Shown here: in pieces, positions 10,384-30,809 of the stretch | Layout of the letters: each line of letters opens with the position of its first letter | How positions within the stretch are numbered: position 1 is the stretch's first letter | Origin: Microbacterium protaetiae | GTDB lineage: Bacteria > Actinomycetota > Actinomycetes > Actinomycetales > Microbacteriaceae | Assembly: GCF_004135285.1 (NCBI RefSeq) | Contig: NZ_CP035494.1 | Coordinates: forward strand, 992,001-1,056,000 | Direction of reading: 5' to 3' | Length of the DNA stretch: 64,000 nt | Notes under the pieces: model-generated | The model's input: the letters and a program-made list of their open reading frames with translations, nothing else | What the model was told of the DNA's origin: nothing | Database searches by the model: none | Position numbers and translations under genes: made by a program

Positions 10384-10431
10384 AACGAGTGAGCGCAGCG
10401 ACGCGCTCCCTGTGACCCGGAAGGACCCGAC

Positions 10432-11307: not shown

Positions 11308-11318
11308 GGAGGCCCCGA

Positions 11319-13669
<2,351 letters not shown>

Positions 13670-16113: not shown

Positions 16114-18810
16114 TCAGGAAGGTTCGGCGGTGTGGCTGCTGTGCCCCACCGGCAGCACCACGTCATGCCCGGGGAGCACGAGCCGGGCAGCGATGCCGTG
16201 GGGAATGTCCACGGTGACGGATGCCGCGTCCGCACCGCGCTGCCACTCCACCCCGATGCGCCCATACGGAGTACCCACCTGGGTGCGCACGTGCTGCAGC
16301 CCCGAGTCGAGGTCGGGCTCGATCACCGCCGTCCGGTAGCCGGGCGAGGTGGAGCGGATGCCGGCGACGCGCCGATACAGCCAGTCGTCGACGCTTCCCG
16401 GTGCGTAGTGGTTGAGCGAGGCCGGGCGGATGACCCCCTCGGGCGAGACAGCGTCCCAGTTCTCCCAGATCGTCGTCGCCCCGTGGTCGACCTCGTACAG
16501 CCACGACGGCATCTCACGCTGCCACAGCAGCGTGCGCGCGAGAGCCGGGTACCCGTGATCCCACAGCACGTCGAGCAGATACGGCGTGGAGAGAAACCCG
16601 GTGTCCAGACGGTCGCCGCGGGCGTGCACGAGCTCGACGAGCCGCGCGGCGGTCGCCGACCGGCGCGCGGGCGGCACCATGTCGAAGGTGAGAGCAAGGA
16701 CGTAGAGTCCCTGCAACCGCACCGGCAGATCGCCTGCGGCATCCACATACTCGGCCGCGAAGGCGGCGCGCACTTCGGCCGCGCGATCGGTGAGTTCCGC
16801 TGCCTCATTCGATCGGCCGAGCACTCCGGCCATGGCCGCGGCAAGGCTCAGTGTCTGCGCCTGGAACATCGGCGCGATGTATTCGCCGGTCAGCGCCGGC
16901 GCTATGCCGATGGCCTCGTGCAGGGGTCGCCCGCGCAGGGTCGACGGGGTCAGCCAGTCGCCGAACTGCTCCCCCGTGTTGTAGAGCAGCGCCTGGTGGC
17001 GGCGCTGGGCAGCTGTCAGCTCGACGCCGTGCAGTCGCGTCGGCAGTTCGGATGCCGCCGTCTCACGCTGGTACGCGATCCACCGGCACACCGCGGCGTA
17101 GTTGTCCTCCAGCAGGCGGCGGTCCCCGGTGCGCTCATACAGCGTCCAGGGCACTATCGCGATGGCGTCACTCCAGCCGGCGGCGGCGACGATCGAGCCG
17201 ACCCCGTTCGCATCAGCTGCGGCCTGAGCATCGAACGGCGAGCGCGGCGAGAAGATCGGCACCCGTCCGTCGGGCAGCTGGTCGGCGCGCAGGTTGTCGA
17301 GCCAGCGCGAGAGGAACGGCACCACCTGGGCGTTGTTGGTCGCAGCGGCGGCGAAAACCTGCAGATCGCCGGCCCAGCCGGCGCGTTCGCGCTGTGGACA
17401 GTCGGTCGGGATCGACAGGAAGTTGCCGCGCTGACTCCAGACGACATTGTCGTGCAGCCGTTGCAGTCGCGGGTCGGATGCCGCAAACCCGCCCGTCTGC
17501 TCGAGGTCACTGGCCAGCACCACGGCGACGATGTCGCTCGAATCGAGCCGGTCGATTCCGCGGACGCGCACATATCGGAAGCCGTGGAAAGTGAACTCGG
17601 GCTCCCACTGATCGTCCCCGCCGGCGCCGATGAAGACGTCCGCCTGGTCTTTGTTGATGCCCACGATGTTGTCGAACCACGAGCCGTCGGCGGCGAGTGT
17701 CTCGGTGTGCTCGATGACCACCTGCTGGCCGGGCGTGGTCTTGTACAGCCGCACCCGCACCCGGCCGGCGATCACCTGGCCGAAGTCCACGACGAACCCC
17801 GCCGCGGTCTCGACGACCGACACAGCCCTCAGCTCGTGCACGCGACGCACCGGTTCCCCCGCGAAAGGGCGCAACGTGGTGTGATCGTGCCCGGTCTCGC
17901 GCACCGGCCGCCACTCGTCGTCGGCGAATCCGACCCGATTCCAGCCATCGGGGTCGGCGCGCCGGTCGAACCGCTCGCCGATGAAAAGGTCGGCGTACGC
18001 CCACGGACCGGGAGCGCTGCGCGCGTCGGCACCGGATGCTACGACCTGACTCGTACCGTCGGCGTGGTCGATGTGCACCTGCCAGATGGCGGCGGTGCGC
18101 GTACCGAACTGGGCGCTGGACCCGGTCAATCCGATCCGCCCCGCCCACCACCCGTCGGCCAGCGCGAGCGCGAGCACGTTCTCGCCTTCGTGCAACCGCG
18201 CGGTCACGTCGTAGCACTGCACCGACAAGCGGCGCAGGTAGGCATCCGATCCCGGCGCGAGCACCTGGTCGTCGGCGCGCGCACCGTTGACGAACGCGGA
18301 ATACACGCCGTGTGCGGTGGCATACAGACGTGCACGCACCGGTGCGGCATCCAGGGTGAACCGCTGCCGGATCAGCTGCGGCGGGCGCAGCCGCTGTTCG
18401 GGTGCGCCCTCCGGCTCGAGGCCGCGGATCCAGTCGAGAATGCTCCACCGCTCGACGAGGGCGTCCTGCTGCTCGGGCTCGACCCATGCCGCCTGCCAGT
18501 CGGTGACGTGCAGCAGTGCCGTCTCGAACGTCGACTCGGCCCAGGCGGTCCACGCGCCCGCGGTCGTACGGCTGCGCACCCGCCAGGTGTACACCGTGTT
18601 CGAGCGCAGGGGCGTGCCGCGGTATTCGATCAGCGCTGTCTCATGCGAATCGGCGGGTCCCGGTGCCCACACCGGGCCTGCGGCATCCGACACCTGCACC
18701 TCGAAGGCTGCTTGGTCGTGATCGACCAGCCACGTGAAACGAGGCACGGCCGTGCCGAGACCGATCGGCGCCGTCAGGTACTCGACGCGCAGGTCACGGC
18801 AGACGGTCAT
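16114..18810 (-). CDS. alpha-L-rhamnosidase, GH78
   Basis: 898 residues, typical of bacterial GH78. N-terminal beta-sandwich modules (about 1-340), then the (alpha/alpha)6 barrel. The catalytic-acid region PTDCPQRERAGWAGD lies near residues 463-477 and SWLYEVDHGATTIWENWD near 770; SLNHYAPGSVDDWLYRRVAG closes the barrel. There is no signal peptide, so it acts inside the cell on imported rhamnosides and releases L-rhamnose. Last gene of the operon SDR-SDR-FAH-FAH-GH78, 15 bp after the preceding gene. A GH1 beta-glucosidase and a quercetinase-like cupin nearby suggest rutin or similar flavonol rutinosides as substrate; pectin side chains are the alternative. Confidence 0.95.
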   Translation of the reverse strand: MTVCRDLRVEYLTAPIGLGTAVPRFTWLVDHDQAAFEVQVSDAAGPVWAPGPADSHETALIEYRGTPLRSNTVYTWRVRSRTTAGAWTAWAESTFETALLHVTDWQAAWVEPEQQDALVERWSILDWIRGLEPEGAPEQRLRPPQLIRQRFTLDAAPVRARLYATAHGVYSAFVNGARADDQVLAPGSDAYLRRLSVQCYDVTARLHEGENVLALALADGWWAGRIGLTGSSAQFGTRTAAIWQVHIDHADGTSQVVASGADARSAPGPWAYADLFIGERFDRRADPDGWNRVGFADDEWRPVRETGHDHTTLRPFAGEPVRRVHELRAVSVVETAAGFVVDFGQVIAGRVRVRLYKTTPGQQVVIEHTETLAADGSWFDNIVGINKDQADVFIGAGGDDQWEPEFTFHGFRYVRVRGIDRLDSSDIVAVVLASDLEQTGGFAASDPRLQRLHDNVVWSQRGNFLSIPTDCPQRERAGWAGDLQVFAAAATNNAQVVPFLSRWLDNLRADQLPDGRVPIFSPRSPFDAQAAADANGVGSIVAAAGWSDAIAIVPWTLYERTGDRRLLEDNYAAVCRWIAYQRETAASELPTRLHGVELTAAQRRHQALLYNTGEQFGDWLTPSTLRGRPLHEAIGIAPALTGEYIAPMFQAQTLSLAAAMAGVLGRSNEAAELTDRAAEVRAAFAAEYVDAAGDLPVRLQGLYVLALTFDMVPPARRSATAARLVELVHARGDRLDTGFLSTPYLLDVLWDHGYPALARTLLWQREMPSWLYEVDHGATTIWENWDAVSPEGVIRPASLNHYAPGSVDDWLYRRVAGIRSTSPGYRTAVIEPDLDSGLQHVRTQVGTPYGRIGVEWQRGADAASVTVDIPHGIAARLVLPGHDVVLPVGHSSHTAEPS

Positions 18811-18825
18811 GGGGTTCTTTCGCGG

Positions 18826-19668
18826 TCAGGCGAATCGGGTGGTCAGCGTGCCGATGCCCTCGATCTCGCTGACCAGCACGTCGTCGGTGCCGATGAACCT
18901 CGGCGGAGTGCGCCGGTTGCCGATCCCCGAAGGGGTACCCGAGAAGATGATGTCGCCCGGCAACAGCGCACACACTGCTGACAGTCGCACGAGCAGTTCG
19001 GGCACGTCGTAGAGCATCATCGATGTGCGCGAGGACTGCATCCGCTCCCCCGACAGACGGCATCCGATCGCCAGGTCGTCACGGTCGGCCAACTCATCGG
19101 GTGTGACCAGCCACGGGCCGGTGGGCCCGAATCCGGGAAACGACTTGCCCAGGCTGAACTGCGGCGCCGCACCCTGCAGCTGTGTGACCCGCTCAGACAG
19201 GTCCTGCCCGATCGTGAGCCCGGCGACGTGGTCCCAAGCCTGCTCGCGGCCGAGCTGAAAGCCCTCGCGGCCGATGACGACGACCAGTTCGACCTCCCAG
19301 TCCACATGCCCCTCGGGCAGCGATACGACGGTACGCTGCCCGACGATGCAACTGGGGAACTTCGTGAATGTCACAGGCATCGCGTCGGGCGGATACCCCG
19401 CCTCGGCGGCGTGCTCGGCATAGTTCAGTCCGATCGCGAACACCTGCCGCGGGCGCGGAACCGGGGCATCCAGTATCGCGGGATCGAACGGTACGACGGG
19501 AGTGGATGCCGCTTCTGCCCCGCCCTGCGCCCACCGAGTGAACGCAGCCCAGTCATTGAAAAGGGTCTGGGGGTCGGGGCCGAATCGGCCCTGCGATGCT
19601 GCAGCGATGTCGACCGCGCCGTCTTTCATGACCAGAACGGCACGACCGGCGAGGTTGGCCAGCTTCAC
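18826..19668 (-). CDS. fumarylacetoacetate hydrolase (FAH) family protein 1
   Basis: 280 residues from a GTG at 19668, four bases after the previous stop; the longer upstream frame is read from the neighbouring gene. FAH fold: IGLNYAEHAAEAG, metal ligands in the VDWEVELVVVIGR pair of acids and IGQDLSER, then PGDIIFSGTPSGIG and a GIGTLTTRF end. FAH enzymes cleave or hydrate beta-diketo acids with a divalent metal in the cytoplasm. In a rhamnosidase operon a 2,4-diketo-3-deoxy-sugar-acid hydrolase of the non-phosphorylating L-rhamnose route is a sensible guess. Why two FAH proteins are present is unclear. Confidence 0.9.
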   Translation of the reverse strand: MKLANLAGRAVLVMKDGAVDIAAASQGRFGPDPQTLFNDWAAFTRWAQGGAEAASTPVVPFDPAILDAPVPRPRQVFAIGLNYAEHAAEAGYPPDAMPVTFTKFPSCIVGQRTVVSLPEGHVDWEVELVVVIGREGFQLGREQAWDHVAGLTIGQDLSERVTQLQGAAPQFSLGKSFPGFGPTGPWLVTPDELADRDDLAIGCRLSGERMQSSRTSMMLYDVPELLVRLSAVCALLPGDIIFSGTPSGIGNRRTPPRFIGTDDVLVSEIEGIGTLTTRFA

Positions 19669-19672
19669 GCGA

Positions 19673-20548
19673 TCACCAGTCCACGCGCTGCGGGGCCGGC
19701 TCGCCGTAGCGGTCCTGCCACGAGATGACGCGGTTGCGCAGCACGCCGATGCCCTCGATCTCGGCCTCGACCACGTCACCGGGCTTGAGGTAGAAGTCGA
19801 ACGGGTCCGGCTGCACGGCGGCGACACCCGAGATGGTGCCGGTGGTGATCAGGTCGCCGGCGCTGAAGTTCTGCGGCGAGTGGTACGCCACCAGGTGCGG
19901 CCACTTGATGCGGGTGCGGTTCGTGTTGCCCTGCTGACGCACCTCGCCGTTCACCCGCAGCTCCATGGCCATGTTGTGCATGTCGGGCACTTCGTCCTTC
20001 GTGACGATCCACGGTCCGATCGGGCAGAACGTGTCGATCCCCTTCGAGAACGAGAACACCCCCGATTCCATCTCCTTGCGCTGGATGTCGCGCGCGGTGA
20101 TGTCGTTGAAGACCGTGAACCCTGCGATGTAGTCTTCAGCCTCGTCGGCGTCGAAGAACTTGCCGCTCTTGCCTATGACGATGGCCATCTCGAGTTCGTA
20201 GTCCAATTCCTTTGTCAGTCCCTCGGGATAGACGATGTCGTCGTCGGGCCCGATGATGGCATCGAGGTTCTGGAAGAACACGATGCCCTTGTGCACGGGA
20301 TGCGACCAGTCCACCGCGGTGAGCTCGTTGTGGTGGTCGATGAAGTTACCCGCGGTGTGGAAGAACTTCTTCGGGCGAATCGGCGCCTCGAGCTTCACGT
20401 CAGCATAGGCAAGCCGTTCGCCGGTCTCGCGTACGTCGCCGCCGCGCTCGAAGTACTCGCGGGTGGAGGGGACGTCGAGTTCGATGACGAGGCCCTCCTC
20501 GAGTTCCAGGCGGCCGACCCGGCCGCCGTCGAAGGTGATGAGCTTCAT
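19673..20548 (-). CDS. fumarylacetoacetate hydrolase (FAH) family protein 2
   Basis: 291 residues from the ATG at 20548, preceded by AGGAGAC; the extra upstream residues of the open frame were rejected. FAH features: AGNFIDHHNE, the metal-binding acids in LDYELEMAIVIGK and FNDITARD, GPWIVTKDEV, and the conserved end LKPGDVVEAEIEGIGVLRN. Only distantly like FAH protein 1, so the pair is not a recent duplication. Probably acts on a diketo acid from sugar or phenolic breakdown; the substrate cannot be assigned. A 79-base gap separates it from the upstream SDR. Confidence 0.9.
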   Translation of the reverse strand: MKLITFDGGRVGRLELEEGLVIELDVPSTREYFERGGDVRETGERLAYADVKLEAPIRPKKFFHTAGNFIDHHNELTAVDWSHPVHKGIVFFQNLDAIIGPDDDIVYPEGLTKELDYELEMAIVIGKSGKFFDADEAEDYIAGFTVFNDITARDIQRKEMESGVFSFSKGIDTFCPIGPWIVTKDEVPDMHNMAMELRVNGEVRQQGNTNRTRIKWPHLVAYHSPQNFSAGDLITTGTISGVAAVQPDPFDFYLKPGDVVEAEIEGIGVLRNRVISWQDRYGEPAPQRVDW

Positions 20549-20627
20549 GGGGTTGTCTCCTGTTTGTTCGTTTCGACTCGCTGCGCCCGCGGGATGAACG
20601 CCAGGGCGCCCGAATGCGGGGGAGGTG

Positions 20628-21407
20628 CTACGCGCCGACCATCGTGTTGCCGCCGTTGGCGACGATGTAACCGCCGGTGAGGTGGGCGGATTCGTCGGTG
20701 GCCAGCCACAGACAGGTACCCGCGACATCGGCCGGAGTGGCGATCACACCCATCGGCGTCTGGGCGAGCACCTGCTCCCGACGCCCGTTCTTCCAGTCCT
20801 CTCGGCTCTTGAGGCGCTCGGTCTCCATGAATCCGGGGGCGAAGGTGTTCACCCGCACCTGGGGTGCCAGTGCCCGTGCGTACGACTTGGTCACGCCGAG
20901 GATGCCGTACTTGGCCGCCGCGTACTGCGGCGCCCGGGGCGACCCGTTCACGACGACGGTGGAGCCGACGTTGACGATGGCACCATGCCCATCGGCGTGC
21001 ATGCGCCCGCCGAATTCATGTGTCATGAGCAGGGTGCCCTTCAGATCGACGTCGATGACGTCATCGAGGGCTTGCTGCGTGAGCTCACGCCATCCCTGCT
21101 GCTCGCTGGACATGTCGCCGACGTTGTTGATCAGCACGTCCAGGCCGCCGAACTGCCGCCACACCTCGTCGGCCATGGCCGTGATCTGATCCCACTTGGC
21201 GATGTTCGCCTGCACGATGATGCCGTCAGAGCCGGCTTCACGAACGCGCTCGAGCGTGCGCTCGGCACCGGCCTTCGAGCTGTTGTAGTGCACGGCCACC
21301 GTCGCGCCCTCCTCAGCGGCGCGGGTGGCGATCTCGGCGCCGAATCCGGTGCCGGCGCCGGTGACCAGCACCGTCTTGCCGGCGAACCTGGGATAGATCT
21401 CGGACAT
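20628..21407 (-). CDS. short-chain dehydrogenase/reductase (SDR) 1
   Basis: 259 residues, classical SDR. Nucleotide-binding TGAGTGFG (16-23), NNVGD, active-site Ser in VNVGSTVVV, YAAAK catalytic Tyr/Lys, and APGFMETERL. The C-terminal end (TGGYIVANGGNTMVGA) is usual. In this operon it may oxidise L-rhamnose or 2-keto-3-deoxy-L-rhamnonate, as SDRs do in the non-phosphorylating rhamnose route; sequence alone cannot settle which. Confidence 0.9.
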   Translation of the reverse strand: MSEIYPRFAGKTVLVTGAGTGFGAEIATRAAEEGATVAVHYNSSKAGAERTLERVREAGSDGIIVQANIAKWDQITAMADEVWRQFGGLDVLINNVGDMSSEQQGWRELTQQALDDVIDVDLKGTLLMTHEFGGRMHADGHGAIVNVGSTVVVNGSPRAPQYAAAKYGILGVTKSYARALAPQVRVNTFAPGFMETERLKSREDWKNGRREQVLAQTPMGVIATPADVAGTCLWLATDESAHLTGGYIVANGGNTMVGA

Positions 21408-21437
21408 CTTCGACCTTCTCTCTCTTGCGTGTGACGG

Positions 21438-22250
21438 TCAGACCAGGGTGCGGCCGCCGTCGATGTACATGACATGACCGGTGATGAAACCCGCGTGCCG
21501 CGACGAGAGGAACAGCGCGGGGCCGGTGACCTCTTCAGGCGTGCCCAGGCGCCCCGCGGGTACCAGGCCTTCGAGACTCTCGCGCTTTCCCGGCTTGGCG
21601 AGCTCGCCCGCCGTCAGCGGCGTCTCGATGTACCCGGGTGCCAGCGCATTGACGGTGACCCCGGCGTCGGCCCACTCGCGAGCCATCACCCGCAGCAGCT
21701 GGTTGATGCCGCCCTTGGATGCCGCATAAGGCCCGTGCGAGTGATGCGCGAGCAGTCCGGAGACGCTGGACAGAGCCAAGATGCGCCCCGAACGTTGCTC
21801 GACCATGTGGCGGCCGGCTGCCTGGGCGAGACCGAACAGCGTCGACAGGTTCACCCGCAGGATGTGGTCCCACTCGTCCTCGGTGAACGCGAGGATAGGC
21901 CGGCGATCGTTGATGCCGACCGCGTGCAGCAGCACGTCGAGGCCGCCCAGGCGCTCGACCGCGTCAGCCACGACCCGGGCGCCGGCGCCGTGCTCGGTCA
22001 GGTCGGCGCGGAGAAGTTCGCAGGCAACCCCTGCCTCATCGAACGCGACGGCGACCGCGTCGAGCACGCTCTGTTCGCGATCGACGACGGCGACGGATGC
22101 TCCGGCGGCCGCGTACGCGAGAGCACACGCTCCGCCGATCCCGCCGCCCCCTGCCACGAGTACCCGAGCACCCGTCAGACCGAGCCAGGCTGCATCGCGT
22201 GTCCCTACCGCGGCCGCGTGCGTGCCGTCGATCTCGGCGTTGATCACCAT
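21438..22250 (-). CDS. short-chain dehydrogenase/reductase (SDR) 2
   Basis: 270 residues from the ATG at 22250 (GGTGGG upstream); a GTG at 22262 would add four residues. Glycine motif AGGGGIGG (33-40), DREQ after beta-2, HAVG in place of NNAG, LALSSVSG, YAASK and APGYIETPLT. The HAVG variant is seen in some sugar-acid dehydrogenases. First gene of the rhamnosidase operon; the GAAAGT-type operator lies 23-35 bases upstream of this start. Confidence 0.9.
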   Translation of the reverse strand: MVINAEIDGTHAAAVGTRDAAWLGLTGARVLVAGGGGIGGACALAYAAAGASVAVVDREQSVLDAVAVAFDEAGVACELLRADLTEHGAGARVVADAVERLGGLDVLLHAVGINDRRPILAFTEDEWDHILRVNLSTLFGLAQAAGRHMVEQRSGRILALSSVSGLLAHHSHGPYAASKGGINQLLRVMAREWADAGVTVNALAPGYIETPLTAGELAKPGKRESLEGLVPAGRLGTPEEVTGPALFLSSRHAGFITGHVMYIDGGRTLV

Positions 22251-22272
22251 CGAACCCACCACTTCATTTAAT

Positions 22273-22285
22273 AAAAGTCACTTTC
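22273..22285. promoter_or_regulatory. GAAAGTNACTTTC-type operator, copy 1
   Basis: AAAAGTCACTTTC; the inner palindrome AAAGT-C-ACTTT is perfect at 22274-22284. It lies between the 3' end of the esterase gene and the start of the SDR-FAH-rhamnosidase operon, so it can only serve the operon. Confidence 0.75.
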
Positions 22286-22318
22286 TGTAAATGAGAGTAT
22301 CTCGTCGGTACCTGTTCG

Positions 22319-23215
22319 TCAAACCTCGTCAGCCAAGAAGGCCGCGATCCGGTCATAGCTGCGCACGGCCGAGGGGTCTCCGGGCGCATTGAGGAACCCG
22401 TGCATGTTCGGCTCATCCACGAGCTGCGCGACCACGCCAGCAACCTCGAGCTCGGCGGCATAGGCCTCGCCGGACGGTCGCAGCTCATCTTGGTGGGCGG
22501 TGATGACCAGAGTGGGGGTGAGACCGGTCAGGTCGTGACCCCCAGGGAAGGCATACGGGTCAGCCGCCGAGTGGCCGCCGAGATAGTTCTCGTTGAGCGC
22601 CTTCGTGATCTCGGGAGGGAAGCCCATTCCGGCCGGCAGCTGCGCGATGATCGCGGCGAGCTCGGCGTCGGGCGCCGGCACCGTGGCATGCAGAACGGGG
22701 TAGACGAGCACCGTGCGTGCAGGCGATGTGCCGCGATCACGCAGGCGCAACGCGGCCCCGCCGGCAAGATTGCCGCCCGCGCTCGCACCGCCGATGCCCA
22801 CCCGCAGCGGGTCGGCACCGAATCGGGCAGCGTTCTGCTGGGCCCAGTCGAAGGCGGCGACCAGTTGCAGCGAGGCGACGGGGAACGGCGCGCGCGGACG
22901 GTCACCGCCCACGGCGATGAGCTGTTCGGGTGTGGGCATGCCCTCGATGTCGGGCGCTGGCAGCAGTGAGATGACTTCACCGGGCGCGAGGGTGTAGTCA
23001 ACCGAGACCACCGTGGTTCCCCGTGCGGCAAGCTCGCGCGCGGTGAGGTCCGCTTCGGGCATCGCCAACTCCCCGAAGACGAAGGCTCCGCCGTGGGCCC
23101 ACACCAACATCGTGCCGTTCGGCGTGGGCGCCGGGTAGGTGCGCACGGTGAAATCGTGGTCGGCCGCGCGCAGCGCGGTGTCGCTGGTCTCGATGGTCGC
23201 AGCATTGTCGGTCAT
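22319..23215 (-). CDS. alpha/beta hydrolase, HSL-like esterase
   Basis: 298 residues from the ATG at 23215; a further ATG at 23233 would add six. Hormone-sensitive-lipase-type esterase: oxyanion-hole HGGAF, nucleophile elbow GGASAGG, acid in HQDELRPSG, His in MHGFLN. No signal peptide, so cytoplasmic. Divergent from the decarboxylase-like gene, sharing the operator at 23239-23251. In a flavonol pathway it could cleave acyl glycosides or the depside formed by quercetinase; a second esterase at 24708 competes for that role. Confidence 0.9.
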   Translation of the reverse strand: MTDNAATIETSDTALRAADHDFTVRTYPAPTPNGTMLVWAHGGAFVFGELAMPEADLTARELAARGTTVVSVDYTLAPGEVISLLPAPDIEGMPTPEQLIAVGGDRPRAPFPVASLQLVAAFDWAQQNAARFGADPLRVGIGGASAGGNLAGGAALRLRDRGTSPARTVLVYPVLHATVPAPDAELAAIIAQLPAGMGFPPEITKALNENYLGGHSAADPYAFPGGHDLTGLTPTLVITAHQDELRPSGEAYAAELEVAGVVAQLVDEPNMHGFLNAPGDPSAVRSYDRIAAFLADEV

Positions 23216-23238
23216 GAGGCATCCAATCATCACTCAAT

Positions 23239-23251
23239 GAAAGTTACTTTT
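23239..23251. promoter_or_regulatory. GAAAGTNACTTTC-type operator, copy 2
   Basis: GAAAGTTACTTTT, followed directly by TATACA (23251-23256), a possible plus-strand -10 box. It sits between the divergent esterase (start 23215) and decarboxylase-like gene (start 23302). Confidence 0.75.
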
Positions 23252-23301
23252 ATACAATGGAGTATGTCGCAGCTCGCGACATGACGAAAGACGAGGTGGC
23301 C

Positions 23302-23853
23302 ATGTCGTCGAGACTTCCCCGACTCACGCCCGATGCACTCGATGCCGCCCAGCGCACGCTGTACGACGCGATAGCGGCCGGGCCCCGGGCGCAGGGAGCT
23401 CAGCACTTCGACCTGACCGCGGCCGACGGTTCGTTGCGCGGGCCGTTCAACGCAATGCTGTTCTCGCCCGCGCTGGGCACCGCGCTGCAAGAGGTCGGAG
23501 CCGCCGTGCGGTACCGCACCTCGCTCAGCGATCGCGCCCGCGAACTCGCGATCCTGCTGGTGGCCACGCGCTGGAACAGCGCCTTCGAGCGAGAATCGCA
23601 CGAGGCCATCGGTCGTGCGGTCGGCCTCACCGATTCCGAGATCGCAGCAACGAGGAACTCCGACGCCGCCCCGTTCAGCGGCATCGAGCACACCGTGGCT
23701 CGCACGGTGCTGGCGCTGCTGGACGGCGACCTCGACGATGCCGCGTGGGCCGCGGCATCCCGTGATCTCGGCACGGCCGCCGTCGTCGAACTCACCACCC
23801 TCGTCGGGTACTACTCGACTCTGGCGCTGCAGTTGCGCGTCTTCCGCGTGTGA
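23302..23853 (+). CDS. carboxymuconolactone decarboxylase (CMD) family protein
   Basis: 183 residues from the ATG at 23302, chosen because GAGGTGG precedes it and the MSSRLPRLTPDALDAAQRTLYDAI start is typical of the family; earlier in-frame ATGs (23257, 23281) lack this. CMD core RARELAILLVATRWNSAFERESHEAIGRAVGL near residues 75-106. There is no CxxC, so it is not an AhpD-type peroxidase reductant. Possible roles are a decarboxylase or hydrolase step on an aromatic intermediate such as a phloroglucinol carboxylate; this is a guess from context. Followed 39 bp later by the IclR gene, probably one transcript. Confidence 0.88.
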   Translation: MSSRLPRLTPDALDAAQRTLYDAIAAGPRAQGAQHFDLTAADGSLRGPFNAMLFSPALGTALQEVGAAVRYRTSLSDRARELAILLVATRWNSAFERESHEAIGRAVGLTDSEIAATRNSDAAPFSGIEHTVARTVLALLDGDLDDAAWAAASRDLGTAAVVELTTLVGYYSTLALQLRVFRV

Positions 23854-23892
23854 TTTGCCGCGAACCCCTGATCGGAGATACGGTTTCGCTCT

Positions 23893-24702
23893 ATGAAAGC
23901 TTCTGCTCAGACTCAGGCCTCGACCGGCGCCAAGACGGGCAACCGATATCGCATCGAAGCTCTCGCCAAAGGGCTCGACGTGCTGCGACTGTTCGACGAG
24001 ACGACCACCTCGCTCAAGCTGCGCGAGATCTGCGACCGCACCGGCATCCCGATGCCGACGGCATTCCGCGTGGTGGCGACGCTGGAAGAAGAGGGCTTTC
24101 TCGAGCGACTGCCCGACGGCGGCATCCAGCCCGGCGTCGCCGTGCTCACCCTCGGTTCGGCAGCATTGCGCGGTTCGGGCCTCGTGCAGCTGAGTGAGCA
24201 GCCGCTTCGCCATCTCGCTGAGCAGATCGGCGAGACCGTGAATCTGGGAGTGCTGCTGGGTGACCAAGTGCTCTACCTTGCGCGAATGCGCAATTCCGAT
24301 CTGGTCACGGCGAACATCCAGGTGGGCTCGACGTTGCCGGCCGCCTACACGTCGATGGGCAAGCTGCTGCTGGCCTACCTCTCGCCCGACGAGGTGCGGC
24401 AGACGCTTGCCGACTATGATTTCAGCGCCGCAGCCGGGCCGAACGCCGCCACGTCGTCGGAAGAGCTCGTCGCGCGCTTGGCCGAGATCCGCGCGCAGGG
24501 ATACGCGCTGCAAGATGAAGAGGTCGCCGCGGGGCTGCGCTCGGTTTCCGTGCCGGTGTTCGGGCGCGATTCGCGGCCCGCTGCAGCGATAAACATCGCG
24601 GTTGCGGCCAATCGACACAGCCTGGCCTCGCTGCGCGGTCCCCTGCTGCACGCGCTGCAGAGCACGGCTGATGATGTCTCGCTGCGCCTGCGCTCGGCCT
24701 GA
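23893..24702 (+). CDS. IclR-family transcriptional regulator
   Basis: 269 residues. N-terminal winged helix (IEALAKGLDVLRLFDETTTSLKLREICDRTGIPMPTAFRVVATLEEEGFLER, about 21-72) and C-terminal IclR effector domain (AYTSMGKLLLAYL, GYALQDEEVAAGLRSVSVPVFG). IclR proteins typically bind 13-15 bp palindromes built like GAAA-N5-TTTC, which is the form of the four GAAAGTNACTTTC sites around this gene, so it is the best candidate regulator of the glycoside genes. A TACGGT box eight bases upstream could allow a leaderless internal transcript. Confidence 0.93.
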   Translation: MKASAQTQASTGAKTGNRYRIEALAKGLDVLRLFDETTTSLKLREICDRTGIPMPTAFRVVATLEEEGFLERLPDGGIQPGVAVLTLGSAALRGSGLVQLSEQPLRHLAEQIGETVNLGVLLGDQVLYLARMRNSDLVTANIQVGSTLPAAYTSMGKLLLAYLSPDEVRQTLADYDFSAAAGPNAATSSEELVARLAEIRAQGYALQDEEVAAGLRSVSVPVFGRDSRPAAAINIAVAANRHSLASLRGPLLHALQSTADDVSLRLRSA

Positions 24703-24707
24703 CGGGC

Positions 24708-25493
24708 TCATCTGCACACGCGTGTGCAGAACGCGGCCGCCGCATCCACCAGCGACAACCGATCGACATCGGCGCCGTGCCACATGTGGCCGGCGCCGGG
24801 CACGAGCGTGAGCTCGACCGGCGCACCCACCGCACGCAGTGCCGCGGCGAGCGCCTGACTCTGCGCGGGCGGAACAGCTTCGTCGGCGAGACCGTGGCAG
24901 ATGAGGAACGGCGGGGCACCGGCGCGCACGTGCGAGACGGGACTGGCCGCTCGAGCACGTGCCGGGTCGGCAGACAGTGGATGCCCGAGCCATCCGGCTT
25001 CCCGAGTGGTCGGGTCGTCTGCCTGCCCCAGCGCCTCGGCCATCGCGGGCAGGTCGGCCGGCCCGTACCAGTCCACGACGCCTCGCACCCCTGGGTCTTC
25101 GAGCCCCGCCAGCGCAGCCAGGGTCGCTCCGGCCGATTCGCCCCACAGCACCATGCGCGAGGCGTCCACCCCGTAGCCGTCAGCGTGCGCACGCAGCCAG
25201 GCCAGTGCCGCGGCAACATCGTCGATCTGGGCGGGAAACCGCGCCTCTCCACTGAGTCGATAGTCGAGGGATGCCACGGCCAGGCCTGCGGCGACGATCC
25301 GCGGGAACGCCTGCCCGGCCTCGATCGCCGGGCACAGCACGCGTCGGCTGCCCGCGCGCCACCCCCCGCCATGGAGGAACACGACCAGCGCAGCGCCGGG
25401 GACGGCGGGCAGATGCAGGTCGAGGCTCAGCGGCCGGAAGCCGACGTTCTCGGCGAAGACCAGGTCGCGGAGTACGCGCGGGCCGTCAGTCAT
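24708..25493 (-). CDS. alpha/beta hydrolase coupled to the quercetinase-like gene
   Basis: 261 residues. Esterase of the HGGGW class: FLHGGGWRAGS, nucleophile elbow WGESAG, acid in HGLADEAVPP, His in GAGHMWHG. Cytoplasmic. Its start overlaps the stop of the cupin gene by 8 bp, so the two are translationally coupled. If the cupin is a quercetin 2,3-dioxygenase, the product is a depside ester, and this is the natural candidate for the depside hydrolase giving protocatechuate and a phloroglucinol carboxylate. That function is inference. Confidence 0.9.
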   Translation of the reverse strand: MTDGPRVLRDLVFAENVGFRPLSLDLHLPAVPGAALVVFLHGGGWRAGSRRVLCPAIEAGQAFPRIVAAGLAVASLDYRLSGEARFPAQIDDVAAALAWLRAHADGYGVDASRMVLWGESAGATLAALAGLEDPGVRGVVDWYGPADLPAMAEALGQADDPTTREAGWLGHPLSADPARARAASPVSHVRAGAPPFLICHGLADEAVPPAQSQALAAALRAVGAPVELTLVPGAGHMWHGADVDRLSLVDAAAAFCTRVCR

Positions 25494-26043
25494 CGAGGAA
25501 CGAGTAGTCCGGCCGGAAGATCGTGCCGTGCGCCTGGCCCGCCGACATCATCTGCTCGATCGACGGGGCGAAGAACTCGTCGGGGGCGGGGATGCCGGGC
25601 TTGTCGGTCGCCTTGCCCATTTCATGGAAGAACCGCCCGAATCCGGCGGTGCTCACCCCGAGAATGCGCGAGTCGGCCGACTCAATGCGAAACGCATGGA
25701 TCACCCCCTGCGGCACGTACCCGAACCCGCCAGGGGTGAGCACCTCGTCGCGCTTGAAGCCGTTCTCGTCGTCCATCCAGACGTGCACGGCGCCGTTGGT
25801 GATGAAGAAGATCTCGTTCGTGTCGAGGTGCACGTGCGCGGGGATGATCTGGCCCGCGTTGCCATCACAGGTGAACACGTCGTATTGCCCGTTCGTCTCG
25901 TCGCCGGTCAGCAGCACGGTGAACAGCGTGTCGAACACGACGCTCTTCTCACCGCCACCGGGCGCGAGAAAGAACGGGGCGGGTTTTCCGGGCAGGATTC
26001 CGGCGTGCGGGTGCGTCGTTGACGTGGCTTCGTCGAGGGACAT
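25486..26043 (-). CDS. queD: mono-cupin dioxygenase, quercetin 2,3-dioxygenase-like
   Basis: 185 residues, one cupin domain. Metal ligands are His70 and His72 in PAHVHLDTNEIFF, Glu77 in the same motif, and His116 in GVIHAFR: a 3-His/1-Glu set with the same spacing as the Streptomyces mono-cupin quercetinase (about 186 residues, ligands recalled as 69, 71, 76, 115). The acidic tail PDEFFAPSIEQMM resembles that family. Quercetinases open the flavonol C ring with O2, releasing CO and a depside. Very strong ribosome site AAGGAGG. First gene of a two-gene unit with the esterase; both a GAAAGT-type operator and a TAGGC-type site lie upstream. Another cupin dioxygenase activity cannot be excluded. 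Confidence 0.82.
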   Translation of the reverse strand: MSLDEATSTTHPHAGILPGKPAPFFLAPGGGEKSVVFDTLFTVLLTGDETNGQYDVFTCDGNAGQIIPAHVHLDTNEIFFITNGAVHVWMDDENGFKRDEVLTPGGFGYVPQGVIHAFRIESADSRILGVSTAGFGRFFHEMGKATDKPGIPAPDEFFAPSIEQMMSAGQAHGTIFRPDYSFLDD

Positions 26044-26112
26044 CTTTCAACCTCCTTGTTGATACGGCTGTCTTCATAGTGCGAGATCGGGCGGTCCGAA
26101 GCCAGTTCGATC

Positions 26113-26139
26113 TGCCTACAGCCCGTTAGGCAGGGCCTA
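26113..26139. promoter_or_regulatory. LysR-type site upstream of the quercetinase-like gene
   Basis: TGCCTA (26113-26118) pairs with TAGGCA (26127-26132), and TAGGC-AGG-GCCTA fills 26127-26139. The second palindrome has the T-N11-A form of LysR boxes and recurs at the LysR gene promoter (28377-28390). Confidence 0.6.
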
Positions 26140-26166
26140 TCGATCACGGCAGACTATTCATTGTAC

Positions 26167-26179
26167 GAAAGTGACTTTC
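26167..26179. promoter_or_regulatory. GAAAGTNACTTTC operator, perfect copy 3
   Basis: GAAAGTGACTTTC, a perfect palindrome, between the divergent quercetinase-like and beta-glucosidase genes. TACAAT on the minus strand lies at 26166-26161, next to it, as a possible -10 box for the cupin transcript. Confidence 0.8.
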
Positions 26180-26211
26180 ATCTGATCCGTCGACTGTGGT
26201 AGACCTGACGG

Positions 26212-27447
26212 ATGAGCGAGACCGCAGGCATCGACTTTCTGTGGGGGGTGGCCACTGCCGGCCACCAGAACGAGGGCGAGAACATCCACAGCGACACCTG
26301 GTTTCTGGAGCACGTGTCTCCCACCGTTTTCCAGACCCCTTCAGGCAAAGCCTGCAACAGCTGGGAGCTGTGGGAGACCGACCTCGACCTGGCCCAGCAG
26401 ATGGGCCTGAACGCCTACCGCTTCTCCATCGAATGGGCACGCGTCGAGCCCACTGAGGGTGAGTTCTCCCCGGACGCCCTCGCCCACTACGAGGCGTTCG
26501 TCGATGGATGCCGCGCCCGCGGCCTCGCGCCGCTGGTGACCTTCAGCCACTTCACCGCGCCGCACTGGTTCGCACGTCGCTCGGCCTGGCTCGACCCCGA
26601 GGCACCGATGCTGTTCGCACGGTTCGTCGACACCGTGATGCGGCGCTTGGGCGACCGCATCGCCGTGGCGATCACCTTCAACGAACCCGATCTGCCCGAA
26701 ATGCTGACGTGGGCCGATCTGCCGCCGATCGTCGCCGAACTCGAGCGTGCGACGCTTCAGGCTGCCAGCACCGCCGCCGGAGTGCAACGCTATCGGGCGG
26801 GCAACGTGATGCTGCCCGAAGACTTCGCCGGAATGCGCGCCGGCATGACTGCCGCGCATCGCGCGGCACGGACGGTGATCAAGCGCCATCGCCCCGATCT
26901 GCCGGTGGGTCTGAGCCTGGCGATGGTCGACGACGTCGCGATCGCTGGCGGCGAGGCCCTCCGCGACCGCAAGCGCGCCGAGGTGTACGACTACTGGCTG
27001 CAGCTGGCCGCCGAAGACGATTTCGTGGGGGTGCAGAACTACGAGCGTCTCGTCTATGGACCCGAGGGCGTGATACCTCCGACATCCGGCGTTCCCGTCA
27101 ACGAGATGGGGACGGCCATTGAGCCGGGGTCATTGCGCGGCGCGGTCGAATACGCCCATCAGATCAGCGGGGTCCCCGTGCTCGTCACCGAACACGGGGT
27201 CAGCACCGACGATGACGCACTCCGCGCCGGAATGCTCGAGCCGGCCATCGCCGAGCTGTTCACGGCGATCGAGCACGGAGTGCCGGTGCTCGGGTACTGC
27301 CACTGGACGCTGCTGGACAACTTCGAGTGGATCTTCGGCTACTCCCGGCACCTGGGCTTGCATACCGTCGACCGCGAGACGTTTGCGCGCACCCCGAAGC
27401 CGAGCGCGCGCGTCTATGCCGACATCGTGCGGCGTCACCTGTCCTGA
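26212..27447 (+). CDS. beta-glucosidase, GH1
   Basis: 411 residues, a little short for GH1. Starts FLWGVATAGHQNEGEN (family pattern FxxGxAxxxxQxEG). Acid/base Glu158 in TFNEP, nucleophile Glu327 in VTEHG (most members have TENG), and WTLLDNFEW near the C-terminus for aglycone-side binding. No signal peptide, so it works on imported glycosides. With the rhamnosidase it could strip the disaccharide from rutin. Divergent from the cupin gene across the perfect operator. Converges with LysR, 4 bp apart. Confidence 0.95.
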   Translation: MSETAGIDFLWGVATAGHQNEGENIHSDTWFLEHVSPTVFQTPSGKACNSWELWETDLDLAQQMGLNAYRFSIEWARVEPTEGEFSPDALAHYEAFVDGCRARGLAPLVTFSHFTAPHWFARRSAWLDPEAPMLFARFVDTVMRRLGDRIAVAITFNEPDLPEMLTWADLPPIVAELERATLQAASTAAGVQRYRAGNVMLPEDFAGMRAGMTAAHRAARTVIKRHRPDLPVGLSLAMVDDVAIAGGEALRDRKRAEVYDYWLQLAAEDDFVGVQNYERLVYGPEGVIPPTSGVPVNEMGTAIEPGSLRGAVEYAHQISGVPVLVTEHGVSTDDDALRAGMLEPAIAELFTAIEHGVPVLGYCHWTLLDNFEWIFGYSRHLGLHTVDRETFARTPKPSARVYADIVRRHLS

Positions 27448-27451
27448 CCGC

Positions 27452-28357
27452 TCACGCGCCGGCGACCGGCTTCTGCGATTCGGTGAGCACTATCTCGACG
27501 AACGCGGCGACCGTCGGCGACACGCGTCGCCGCGTGCACAGCAGGACAGTGGCCGGTTCGATGTCGACGATCGGAATGAATGCGATGTTCGGGCGCCGAT
27601 AGTGCGTGGCCGCTGATGAGGCGGCGATGTTCACCCCGACGCCCGCGGCGACGAGCTCGAGAATTCCGTCCATGTCCTGCGCCAAGGCGCCGACGGCCGG
27701 ATGCGTGCCGTCTGGTCGAGGATCCACGAGCCACCACGCGAGGGCGTCGGGATCGCCCCCGGACACGGCGATGAACGTCTCGTCGCCGAGTTCGCCGATA
27801 GTGACGGCATCCCGCCCCGCCAGCGGATGCGCCGCAGAGACGATCAGCACGCGCGGTTCGCTCCACAGCGGTGTGGCCTGCACACTGCGTTCGTCAAGGG
27901 GCAGCGGCGCCGGCGCGAAAACCGCGTCGACCCGGTCGGCGGTCAGCTCCGCCTCGGCGTCGAAGAATCCCACCTTGCGCATCTCGAGCCGCAGGTCGGG
28001 GATCTGCTGCACGGCACTCATGATCGCCGCAGTGGTGAGCGGTCCGGCCCCGGCAGCGACCAGACCGATGCGCAGTGCCGGTGATGTCCGGCCGTGCCGC
28101 GCGGCGATCCAGGCGGTCAGTTCGTCATGGGCATCGACTACGCGACGCGCCTGCGGCAGCAGGGCCCGGCCGGCATCGGTGAGGGCGACCTCACGAGACG
28201 TGCGATCGAACAGCCGCTCGCCGACCAGCCGCTCAAGTCGCGAGATCTGCTGGCTGAGAGAGGGCGACGAGATGTTCAGGCTCTCGGCGGCCGCACCGAA
28301 GTGAAGGTGGTCGGCGAGAGCGCAGAAGTAGCGCAGGGTCGGGATGCTGACGTCCAT
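27452..28357 (-). CDS. LysR-family transcriptional regulator
   Basis: 301 residues from the ATG at 28357 (GGAGCG just upstream); an ATG at 28384 would add nine residues but would overlap the palindrome. Winged helix at residues 1-60 (LRYFCALADHLHFGAAAESLNISSPSLSQQISRLERLVGERLFDRTSR) and a periplasmic-binding-like effector domain. LysR proteins usually control themselves and a neighbouring gene; the TAGGC-N3-GCCTA palindrome upstream of its own start and of the cupin gene supports this. Confidence 0.93.
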   Translation of the reverse strand: MDVSIPTLRYFCALADHLHFGAAAESLNISSPSLSQQISRLERLVGERLFDRTSREVALTDAGRALLPQARRVVDAHDELTAWIAARHGRTSPALRIGLVAAGAGPLTTAAIMSAVQQIPDLRLEMRKVGFFDAEAELTADRVDAVFAPAPLPLDERSVQATPLWSEPRVLIVSAAHPLAGRDAVTIGELGDETFIAVSGGDPDALAWWLVDPRPDGTHPAVGALAQDMDGILELVAAGVGVNIAASSAATHYRRPNIAFIPIVDIEPATVLLCTRRRVSPTVAAFVEIVLTESQKPVAGA

Positions 28358-28376
28358 GTCGCTCCGGTCACGATTG

Positions 28377-28390
28377 TTAGGCACAGCCTA
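28377..28390. promoter_or_regulatory. LysR-type site at the lysR promoter
   Basis: TTAGGCACAGCCTA; arms TAGGC (28378-28382) and GCCTA (28386-28390) around ACA. Same motif as at 26126-26139. Confidence 0.6.
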
Positions 28391-28414
28391 CTCGTGACCG
28401 GAGCGACGCCGACG

Positions 28415-29698
28415 CTACCGGGTGCCGCGAATCGGCAGGATGAGGATGGCTCCGATCAGTCCCGCGATGGCGCCGGTGAGAAACAGCGCCGGGAAGTTCT
28501 GCGGGTTCGTCGCAGAGGCGCCGATGGCCAGCAGCACCGGAGCGACCGCCGGCACGAGCGACGACGGCAGCGACGACGCGAGACCCATGATGCCCATGTC
28601 CTTGGCGATGTCCTTCTGGTTCGGCAGGATCTCGCTGACCAGCGCGAGGTCGACCGCCATGTACACGCCCTGTCCGAGTCCGATGATGCCCATCGCGACC
28701 AGGAACATCGGGAAATCGTGGGCGAAGGTGACCACCACCAACCCCACCGCGAAGATGAGCGCCGCGGCCACGACGAACGGCTTGCGACGTCCGATGCGGT
28801 CGGAGATCTTGCCGGCAAGAGGCGCGAAGACGAGCGCGAACACGGTGAGGACCAGGGTCGAGAGGAACACGGCACCGGAGACTGTCTCGGGCGAGTAGCC
28901 CAGCGCGAGGATCAGGTAGAAGGCCTGGTAGGCCTGCACGGCGGCCACGCCGAAGAAGATCAGCAGTCGGCTCCACCATGCCCAGCCGAACGAGGGGTGC
29001 TTGACCGGGTTGACCCAGAACGTACCGAAGAAGTCGCGCGCGGTGAGGGTGGGGACCTCGGCCTTCGTGATGACGCGGTCGTTCAGCCGGATCGCCAGCA
29101 AGATGGCGCCGACCACCGCGATGCCCGCCGGGATGAGGAACTGGGCCAGCAGAGAGCCCGAGACGAGATTGGCCAGGAACAGGCCGATGACAGCGCCCAC
29201 AGGCAGACTCAGTCCGACGAGGGCTGACGCCGGGCCACGGCGCTTGGGCTCGTACTGATCGGCGAGGATGGCCGTGCAGGCGACCATCACAGCCGCGGCG
29301 CCGAGCATCGTGAAGATGCCGCCGACCACGAGCATGCCGACGCCGGGCGCGGCATAGCTCACGGGCGCACCGATCGCGAACAGGATCGCGCCGAGGAACA
29401 GCAGCGGGCGACGCCGCCCGGTGCGCCAGGTGATGCGGTCGCTGACCCGGCCGAAGATCGGCGCGGCGATGAGCGCGCAGATGGCGCTGACGGCGACCGC
29501 GACCGACAGGATCGTCGTGGCGTTGTCCGGATCGATGAGGTTGGCCTTCAGCGTCAGAGTCAGCACGGCGGGGACGAGTTGCCCCATTCCCATGCCGATG
29601 GCAGCGAGGCCGAGGAAGAACAGGAACCCGCCGCGCGGATTCGGCCAGCTCTGTTCGGAGGTGTCGGTGTCCGCCGCAGCGGATGCAGGTGTGGTCAT
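28415..29698 (-). CDS. MFS transporter, candidate glycoside importer
   Basis: 427 residues, 12 predicted helices in two similar halves. Intracellular-loop motifs GRVSDRITWRTGRRRPLL after helix 2 and the matching AGKISDRIGRRKPFVVAA in the second half, as in the MFS branch that holds GPH-like and sucrose-type carriers. The intracellular rhamnosidase and glucosidase need an importer for intact glycosides, and this gene carries the regulon operator at 29777-29789, about 80 bp upstream. Export of an end product is the alternative. Confidence 0.9.
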   Translation of the reverse strand: MTTPASAAADTDTSEQSWPNPRGGFLFFLGLAAIGMGMGQLVPAVLTLTLKANLIDPDNATTILSVAVAVSAICALIAAPIFGRVSDRITWRTGRRRPLLFLGAILFAIGAPVSYAAPGVGMLVVGGIFTMLGAAAVMVACTAILADQYEPKRRGPASALVGLSLPVGAVIGLFLANLVSGSLLAQFLIPAGIAVVGAILLAIRLNDRVITKAEVPTLTARDFFGTFWVNPVKHPSFGWAWWSRLLIFFGVAAVQAYQAFYLILALGYSPETVSGAVFLSTLVLTVFALVFAPLAGKISDRIGRRKPFVVAAALIFAVGLVVVTFAHDFPMFLVAMGIIGLGQGVYMAVDLALVSEILPNQKDIAKDMGIMGLASSLPSSLVPAVAPVLLAIGASATNPQNFPALFLTGAIAGLIGAILILPIRGTR

Positions 29699-29776
29699 GC
29701 GAGTGGGCTTCCTTGCCGTCGGGTACGGCCATCGCGGCCGCTTCGCTCACATGTGTACCACGGTTCGGCGCATTTT

Positions 29777-29789
29777 GAAAGTCACTTTT
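29777..29789. promoter_or_regulatory. GAAAGTNACTTTC-type operator, copy 4
   Basis: GAAAGTCACTTTT, upstream of the MFS gene that starts at 29698. The next gene on the other side ends here (its 3' end is at 29889), so the site belongs to the MFS promoter. Confidence 0.75.
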
Positions 29790-29888: not shown

Positions 29889-30809
29889 TCAGAACACGAA
29901 CTCCATGAGCTCGACACCCAGCACCCGGAAGGCGTCGTGCGCGCGCAGCCGGTGTGAGATCGACAGATCGTCGAAGCACACCGTCAGCGCATACGACAGA
30001 CCGGCCCGGGGGCCGGCGATCACGCCCGCCTCGGCGCGCACGCCCGGCGCCTGACCGGTCTTGTTGATGAACAGCAACCCGTGCTCGTCGTTGAAGTGGG
30101 CGAAAGGGTCCAGCCCCGTCGCCGAGGCCACCAGCGACAGATCGTGGTTCAGGCTCAGCCACTCGGCCACCTGGGCGCTCACGCCCGCACTGACGACCTC
30201 GGAGTTCACGAGGGCGGCGAACAGCTGTGCGAACTCACGCGTCGTGCCCAGCGCGACGTGCGGTGCGTCATCCGGCCCCCGCTTGTCACGGAAGCGGTCG
30301 AGCAGCGCCGTACGCGCCAGCCCCAGCTGCTCGATACGTGCTCGCACCGCCGGTAAGCCGACGCGCGTGATCAGGGCGTTGGCCGCGGTTCCGTCGCCGG
30401 CGGCGGCGGCGAGCACGGCGAGGTCGGCGACCGGCAGCGCCGGCGCCTTCAGGTGCTGCCACACTCCACCGCCCTCGACTCGGTCGACAGCGTTGCGGTC
30501 GACGATCTCGAGGGCGTCGAGGGTGCCCGCCTCGATCTGGGCCGCGACCTCGACCAGCAGCGGAACGACACCCAGACCTGCCACCGGCAGTGTGACGAAA
30601 TCGTCGCCGCTGAGCACGGGCGTGCCGCGGTCGAGGTCGTCGATGCGCACCGAGACCTGCGCGCCCGAGCGGGCGAGTTCGTCCAGCGCCTTCAGCGTCG
30701 AGCTGAAGGTGCGTCTGCCGACTGCCGCCCTCCTCGGCAGTCGACTGTTTCCACGCCGCGTCCCCCGAAGCGGCGCCGTGTCCCGTTGGGGCTCTGGGGG
30801 CGTGCCCAC
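29889..30809 (-). CDS. beta-lactamase-fold protein lacking catalytic Ser and Lys
   Basis: 306 residues from 30809, but the first 35 or so are Arg-rich and may not be translated; no ATG, GTG or TTG with a ribosome site was found closer in. The fold is that of class A beta-lactamase-related serine hydrolases: the helix that should carry SxxK reads GLGV (78-81) before VPLLVEVAAQIEAG, the SDN position reads GDG (138-140) before TAANALITRVG, and only KTG (250-252, in INKTGQAPGVRAEAG) survives. It is therefore unlikely to be a working beta-lactamase. It may bind a peptidoglycan-like ligand. No signal peptide is evident. Confidence 0.8.
   Translation of the reverse strand: MGTPPEPQRDTAPLRGTRRGNSRLPRRAAVGRRTFSSTLKALDELARSGAQVSVRIDDLDRGTPVLSGDDFVTLPVAGLGVVPLLVEVAAQIEAGTLDALEIVDRNAVDRVEGGGVWQHLKAPALPVADLAVLAAAAGDGTAANALITRVGLPAVRARIEQLGLARTALLDRFRDKRGPDDAPHVALGTTREFAQLFAALVNSEVVSAGVSAQVAEWLSLNHDLSLVASATGLDPFAHFNDEHGLLFINKTGQAPGVRAEAGVIAGPRAGLSYALTVCFDDLSISHRLRAHDAFRVLGVELMEFVF

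Follow-up and report, generated by a model that had tools for sequence, protein, structure and literature searches.

A cluster of genes in the genome of Microbacterium protaetiae (Microbacteriaceae) probably constitutes a regulon for the utilisation of flavonol glycosides, in which a set of SDR, FAH-fold, and CMD-like proteins would act on the A ring of the flavonol. The cluster lies at 16114-29789 (from the GH78 to the MFS gene) of the window, by which we mean the whole analysed stretch of 64,000 nucleotides (G000:C1:992001-1056000) in a genome of one contig of 3.79 Mb. The flavonol-glycoside role is well supported by sequence comparison, since the cluster encodes a quercetinase homolog, a candidate depside esterase, the sole GH78 catalytic-domain match of the genome, a GH1 enzyme, and a candidate importer. 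The gene set SDR1/SDR2/FAH1/FAH2/CMD/IclR, hereafter the module, fairly likely has an A-ring role and is best read as degrading 2,4,6-trihydroxybenzoate and phloroglucinol without oxygenases, through reduction and hydrolysis of beta-diketones. The genes of the cluster and the operator sites discussed below are as follows.

16114..18810, minus strand: GH78 alpha-L-rhamnosidase, at the end of the SDR1 operon (five GH78-type Pfam domains)
18826..19668, minus strand: FAH2, FAH-fold hydrolase of 280 residues (Pfam FAA_hydrolase; open reading frame opens upstream at 19827)
19673..20548, minus strand: FAH1, FAH-fold hydrolase of 291 residues (Pfam FAA_hydrolase; open reading frame opens upstream at 20728)
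20628..21407, minus strand: SDR2, candidate NADPH-type reductase (Pfam adh_short)
21438..22262, minus strand: SDR1, candidate NAD-type dehydrogenase (Pfam adh_short)
22273..22285, unstranded: operator site 1, AAAAGTCACTTTC, upstream of SDR1-SDR2-FAH1-FAH2-GH78
22319..23233, minus strand: ABH3, second alpha/beta-hydrolase (Pfam Abhydrolase_3)
23239..23251, unstranded: operator site 2, GAAAGTTACTTTT, between the divergent ABH3 and CMD-IclR
23257..23853, plus strand: CMD-like protein, candidate A-ring acid decarboxylase (weak Pfam CMD match, 26 bits vs cut-off 23)
23893..24702, plus strand: IclR-family regulator, candidate operator-binding repressor (IclR_C, HTH_IclR)
24708..25493, minus strand: BD-FAE-like esterase, candidate depside hydrolase (Pfam BD-FAE; GESAG motif)
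25486..26043, minus strand: monocupin flavonol dioxygenase of the QueD family, 185 residues (5FLH/5FLI match)
26167..26179, unstranded: operator site 3, GAAAGTGACTTTC, a perfect palindrome between the divergent cupin-esterase and GH1
26212..27447, plus strand: GH1 beta-glucosidase-type hydrolase (Pfam Glyco_hydro_1)
27452..28384, minus strand: LysR-family regulator (Pfam)
28415..29698, minus strand: MFS transporter, candidate glycoside importer (Pfam MFS_1/MFS_2; operator 78 bp upstream)
29777..29789, unstranded: operator site 4, GAAAGTCACTTTT, upstream of MFS-LysR

The FAH1 and FAH2 genes probably start downstream of the points at which their reading frames open, at the coordinates given (19673-20548 and 18826-19668, both minus strand). 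An initial annotation, made from the sequence alone, had named GH78, GH1, cupin, esterase, CMD-like, MFS, IclR, and LysR genes, and domain matches place every one of them here; it did not mention ABH3.

The cupin is a clear homolog of QueD, and flavonol dioxygenation with release of CO is predicted for it. Homology to the QueD structures (PDB 5FLH/5FLI, E 1e-37) extends over residues 8-181 of 185, that is, over the full length, and the metal ligands H70, H72, E77, and H116 are present and invariant across 24 aligned homologs, which bears out the earlier description of a 185-residue monocupin with a 3-His/1-Glu site. The esterase gene (24708-25493) overlaps the cupin gene (25486-26043) by 8 bp, as had been noted. 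For comparison, we used 49 cupin loci from the genomes of many other actinobacteria (42 named loci and seven fetched), with a stretch of approximately 10 kb on each side of the cupin gene. The esterase stands beside the cupin in 46 of the 49 loci, and homologs of LysR (at least 40% identity), GH1, and GH78 (at least 55% identity) were detected in 28, 10, and five of them, respectively. ABH3 appears to be optional in relatives (homologs of at least 45% in 11/49), and the transporters vary between loci, judging from translations and the domains of some. The best NCBIfam model for GH1 is BGL (198 bits, under its cut-off of 478.5). Neither GH78 nor GH1 has an obvious signal peptide when its N-terminus is judged by eye, in agreement with the claim that both enzymes lack one. 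Rutin may be the actual substrate, and the genes would suit other rhamnosides or glucosides of flavonols just as well.

The four promoter regions of the cluster share a palindrome. It was found by reading the intergenic stretches; an inverted-repeat tool reported no operator at the four sites. With up to two mismatches, TGAAAGTNACTTTYA yields eight strand matches, equal to four sites, in the window, where 0.02 would be expected. Across the 3.79-Mb genome, GAAAGTNACTTT yields five strand matches, only at the four promoter sites of the cluster (independent-base estimate 0.13), and the reversed control of GAAAGTNACTTT yields none. This restriction to the promoters of the cluster is good sequence evidence for co-regulation and favors the proposal that the genes constitute one regulon.

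The distribution of the module ties it to the quercetinase. In 19 of the 49 cupin loci, the cupin and esterase have FAH1, FAH2, and SDR2 close by, an association that exceeds chance. All 19 of these module loci encode the esterase, 18 encode CMD, 18 encode IclR, and 12 encode SDR1; in one of them (L037) the stretch ends just before FAH1, which renders its missing SDR1, CMD, and IclR uninformative. Among 398 Microbacteriaceae genomes, we identified the cupin in 15, FAH1 in 13, and GH78 in 172 (170 over cut-off). Cupin and FAH1 were both detected in 12 genomes spread over 10 genera and lie within 13 kb of each other in 12/12 (Fisher p 2e-19, uncorrected for kinship). The exceptions comprise three congeneric genomes that have a 41-42% cupin but lack FAH1 (g74; their loci, L066-L068, have no FAH1, SDR2, or CMD match) and one genome, G066, with FAH1 and without the cupin. 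Neither cupin nor FAH1 was matched, at the thresholds used, in any of the eight other genomes of the genus in this family sample, which suggests that the cluster was acquired by transfer in this genome.

The module also stands alone. In a class-level sample of 374 genomes, FAH1 was detected in 10, including our own. The nine others (at least 45% identity) encode SDR2 and FAH1 together in all cases, SDR1 in eight, and CMD, FAH2, and IclR in seven each; none has a close cupin, the nearest being a 38% match in G714. The 180 genomes of the family of G596 yielded five FAH1 matches, of which two (G758, G836) were new. SDR1/SDR2/FAH1/FAH2/CMD/IclR is a stand-alone module in actinobacteria without a quercetinase, mostly with the same operator. 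In G066, a 97%-complete draft, the module and IclR are kept and no match for the cupin, GH78, or PF00775 was found; PF00775 is present in the other 12 of the 13 FAH1 genomes and is missing only in this one, the one without the cupin. A 3-oxoacid CoA-transferase A/B pair directly follows FAH2 in G066, which fits acetoacetate as the product of the module. The CoA-transferase family models also cover PcaIJ and are indecisive alone; a role of the pair in protocatechuate breakdown is unlikely given that this draft has no PF00775 match.

Operator sites follow the module across these genomes. With up to one mismatch, the 49 cupin loci contain 10 sites in seven loci, all seven with the module, and the 10 sites lie near genes for the cupin, SDR1, CMD, IclR, GH1, or a transporter; when this 0.96 Mb was shuffled once, no site appeared, and several other cupin loci carry copies with two mismatches. 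In the 10 cupin-less module loci (the nine class-level genomes and G066), seven have the palindrome immediately before FAH1 or SDR1 at the same stringency. These amount to 7/8 of the loci with IclR and 0/2 of those without, an association; L103 and L106, which have no IclR homolog match, have no operator, and L082 has weak sites only. This co-occurrence suggests that IclR is the likely binder of the palindrome. It appears that the regulator belonging to the module has come to control the genes for flavonol entry too.

Dedicated genes elsewhere in the genome account for the other products of a flavonol glycoside. A rhamnose operon at C1:739.5-746.2 kb encodes RhaS (387 bits, cut-off 342), RhaI (634, cut-off 531), and RhaEW (1004, cut-off 568), together with a kinase at 405 bits, below its cut-off of 528; E. 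coli-type RhaA (PF06134) had no match in the genome, and the Gram-positive type RhaI is present. PcaG, PcaH, and PcaC exceed their cut-offs at approximately C1:963.7-968.8 kb, some 39 kb from the cluster and 24 kb to the left of the window start, and PcaD falls below its cut-off. With separate genes available for the sugars and for the protocatechuate ring, the module is left, by elimination, for the A-ring product.

Phloroglucinol tautomerises to a 1,3,5-triketone, and FAH-fold enzymes such as fumarylacetoacetase and acylpyruvase cleave beta-diketones. From the gene content we infer a pathway in which the MFS protein would import the intact glycoside, GH78 and GH1 would deglycosylate it in the cytoplasm, the QueD-type cupin would open the C ring with release of CO, and the esterase would split the depside, giving protocatechuate and 2,4,6-trihydroxybenzoate. 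Protocatechuate would then enter the PcaGH and PcaC route and rhamnose the canonical RhaI/RhaEW operon. The CMD-like protein would decarboxylate the A-ring acid to phloroglucinol, SDR2 would reduce this to dihydrophloroglucinol, FAH1 would open the latter, a cyclic beta-diketone, SDR1 would re-oxidise 3-hydroxy-5-oxohexanoate to triacetate, and FAH2 would cleave triacetate into acetate and acetoacetate. IclR would repress the four promoters through GAAAGTNACTTTC and would probably be released by an A-ring intermediate. The exact order of the A-ring steps is tentative, and we put it at somewhat less than even. There is an anaerobic precedent in Clostridium scatologenes (PMC10470551), where an SDR reduces phloroglucinol, a hydrolase opens dihydrophloroglucinol, and the triacetate formed by a dehydrogenase is cleaved by a lyase.

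Residue conservation lends the proposed mechanism some supporting detail. FAH1 has a FAA_hydrolase domain and conserved candidate metal and catalytic residues, as do members of the FAH superfamily; H72, E75, E118, E120, D149, and K169 do not vary across 12 aligned FAH rows, and we take these to have metal-binding and catalytic roles. An AlphaFold model of FAH1 has a mean predicted local distance difference test score of 80, with residues 67-90 and 92-96 below 50. S149, Y162, and K166 of SDR2 are invariant in 20 SDR rows. An Asp after the second strand, typical of NAD enzymes among SDRs, is present in 8/8 SDR1 rows and missing from SDR2, which belongs to the SDR family, as a phloroglucinol reductase would. 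E111 and H115 of the CMD-like protein are invariant in 14/14 rows. PDB searches with SDR1, SDR2, and the CMD-like protein gave no informative relative among the matches listed.

Several observations weigh against an A-ring role of the module and its regulation with the flavonol genes. Twenty of the 49 cupin loci have neither this module nor the oxidative A-ring set described below within reach. The operator (up to one mismatch) was found in just seven of the 19 module-bearing cupin loci. L102 carries an extra site of this kind at a distance from the module. With an operator matrix trained on the clear sites, the best sites of the Demequina loci all lie near CMD, and their scores are mostly 7-18, within the range of shuffles (to 17.6); only that of L025 (20.9) exceeds the shuffles. 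SDR1 is missing at the threshold of 50% identity in seven of the 19 module loci, namely six Demequina loci and L037, which leaves the re-oxidation step without a gene in the Demequina loci. FAH1 is also tied to GH78, though less strongly than to the cupin (11/13 vs 172/398 overall, Fisher p 0.003), GH78 exceeds its cut-off in five of the 10 cupin-less module genomes, and the neighbors of the stand-alone module differ (a lignostilbene-dioxygenase-like gene, a ThDP enzyme, a P450) and name no substrate. At the protein level, the closest relative of FAH2 in a PDB search is the uncharacterised 6V77, a 'putative HpcE protein' (E 6e-87), and no phloroglucinol reductase was among the 60 listed of 629 PDB matches of SDR2. 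SDR2 also lacks the TR(S/N) motif that PMC10470551 reports at the NADPH 2'-phosphate of phloroglucinol reductases: read by eye in the alignment, SDR2 of this cluster has HYNSS (YNS), and five of 12 SDR2 rows have HYRSS (YRS) at that position.

The initial annotation had assigned the SDR and FAH genes to the burning of rutin's rhamnose, a role that would correspond to a non-phosphorylating L-rhamnose (LRA-type) pathway. FAH1 and FAH2 do match the rhamnonate-pathway hydrolase (8GSR; NF053535), the SDRs match RhamDHLra1 weakly, and GH78 follows FAH2 by 15 bp in the same direction; yet the FAH proteins score 158 and 174 bits against a cut-off of 500 and the SDRs 133 and 154 against 400, and no dehydratase or lactonase family occurs among the scanned open reading frames of the cluster (a search for these that did not extend to other parts of the genome). 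The enrichment of GH78 among FAH1 genomes of the family would be expected if the two act together on flavonol glycosides; a rhamnose role of FAH1 would produce it as well. However, GH78 is present in 172 of the 398 genomes and FAH1 in just 13, there is no GH78 match in G066, which has the module, or in G312, and seven of the 19 module-bearing cupin loci have no GH78 match within the fetched stretch; the SDR/FAH set tracks GH78 less than it tracks the quercetinase or occurs by itself. RhaEW exceeds its cut-off in 15 of the 17 genomes searched, and the two below (G066, G319) both have the FAH module. Together with the canonical rhamnose operon of this genome, the scores, the GH78 distribution, and the RhaEW survey led us to reject rhamnose as the main role of SDR/FAH, and we regard the LRA-type pathway as very improbable.

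It is also possible, though rather unlikely, that the module serves as a general catabolic cassette, directed at a different phenolic compound or beta-diketone, and that its link to the quercetinase in Micrococcales has another cause. Its presence in all nine other FAH1 genomes of the class-level sample and in G066, where no close quercetinase was found, would fit this, as would the great number of FAH1 relatives (at least 7969 proteins at E <= 1e-50, annotated 'fumarylacetoacetate hydrolase family' and similar). The tight linkage to the cupin, seen in 12 genomes from 10 genera, the single operator common to the module and the flavonol genes, and the lack of any overlap with the oxidative A-ring set argue instead for the A-ring role. 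Within that role, and sharing in its probability, other chemistry is a smaller but appreciable prospect: trihydroxybenzoate or a keto tautomer might be hydrolysed directly, or reduction might precede decarboxylation, with accessory roles for SDR1 and ABH3. SDR1 (12/19) and ABH3 are optional in the cupin loci, SDR2, FAH1, and FAH2 (19/19) and CMD (18/19) are near constant, and the motif reported for phloroglucinol reductases is missing from SDR2, all of which suit such chemistry; against it, SDR1 and SDR2 are both kept at 50% identity or more in nine of the 10 cupin-less loci, and the anaerobic route (PMC10470551) reduces first.

Ten of the 49 cupin loci carry an oxidative set in place of the module: a flavin-dependent ring hydroxylase in all 10, an intradiol dioxygenase of hydroxyquinol type in six, and an additional FAH protein in seven; none of the 10 has FAH1. 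The oxidative and FAH1 sets are present in 10 and 19 of the 49 loci, respectively, with zero overlap. The loci with the flavin hydroxylase set are L039 (5017-8317), L038, L040-L042, L046, L047, L052, L057, and L058, and the domains were checked in L039, L046, and L057. They would fit an A-ring route via a 2,4-dioxoadipate-type acylpyruvate.

Three cupin-less loci have neighbors of their own. In L103 the module lies near a lignostilbene-dioxygenase-like gene (12487-14022; 512 bits vs cut-off 800), which hints at other phenolic inputs. In L104 (13669-18587) and L101 (12457-14663), a homolog of the cupin-linked esterase adjoins a PF01979 amidohydrolase, possibly a different C-ring opener, and L104 also encodes GH78 and a 61% MFS homolog.

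A neighboring Pfam Sugar_tr/MFS_1 transporter of sugar type (14456..15925, minus strand) has no operator site upstream and no homolog of at least 40% in the 49 cupin loci, and probably lies outside the regulon. A beta-lactamase2-family gene (29889-30809, minus strand) adjoins the MFS gene of the cluster, and no link to the regulon was seen. At 8670-13669 on the plus strand is a C1/O-demethylation cluster that encodes an aldehyde dehydrogenase, an MTHFR-like protein, a formyltransferase/ACT (PurU-like) protein, and a LigM-type demethylase, followed by PadR. The demethylase matches the LigM-type vanillate/3-O-methylgallate O-demethylase (PDB 5TL4) with 722 bits and has no homolog in the 49 cupin loci; this cluster could serve methylated flavonols such as isorhamnetin.

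QueD, GH78, GH1, pca, and rha are of known kinds; the new part is the FAH/SDR A-ring module with its operator. Among the matches listed in the open-access literature, considered by title and the start of the abstract, there was no quercetinase/rhamnosidase regulon, no FAH-based phloroglucinol catabolism, and no A-ring gene set in aerobic bacteria. It is conceivable, though we would not quite expect it, that an oxygenase-free route for the A ring of flavonoids is widespread in actinobacteria, with two FAH proteins and two SDRs for DPGC/TfD/TAL and an IclR regulator and 13-bp operator of its own, and that in Micrococcales this regulator took over the promoters for flavonol-glycoside uptake and ring opening. 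Were this so, a late product of the pathway would induce its entry steps, and the FAH enzymes would be new hydrolases of a phloroglucinol pathway. Flavonols are common plant metabolites, and the defined gene set offers a testable four-step chemistry, a regulator, and a likely operator that is usable to find further flavonoid regulons. G066 provides a genome with the A-ring module alone, and the oxidative clusters offer a natural comparison.

Comparison with known systems places the cluster as follows. Its cupin resembles QueD (PDB 5FLH/5FLI/5FLJ; from Streptomyces sp. FLA) as a monocupin with full-length homology and equal ligand positions, and differs in having glycosidases and the SDR/FAH module as neighbors and in that its flavonol substrate is predicted. 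The LRA pathway resembles the module in its use of SDRs and a FAH hydrolase; in this genome, scores stay below the curated cut-offs and a canonical rhamnose operon lies elsewhere. The oxidative locus of Amycolatopsis bartoniae (L039) shares the cupin-esterase pair with an adjacent IclR-like gene, but its A-ring set combines a flavin hydroxylase and an intradiol dioxygenase with a single FAH protein, where the module has SDR/FAH1/CMD. Neither a cyclase-family DPGC nor a cleavage-enzyme-like TAL is among the scanned open reading frames of the cluster, beyond which the search did not extend. The anaerobic PGR-DPGC-TfD-TAL route of Clostridium scatologenes (PMC10470551) shares with the proposed pathway an SDR reductase, a ring-opening C-C hydrolase, a dehydrogenase, and a C-C cleavage; in the module, the hydrolases would instead be FAH-fold enzymes and the second dehydrogenase an SDR.

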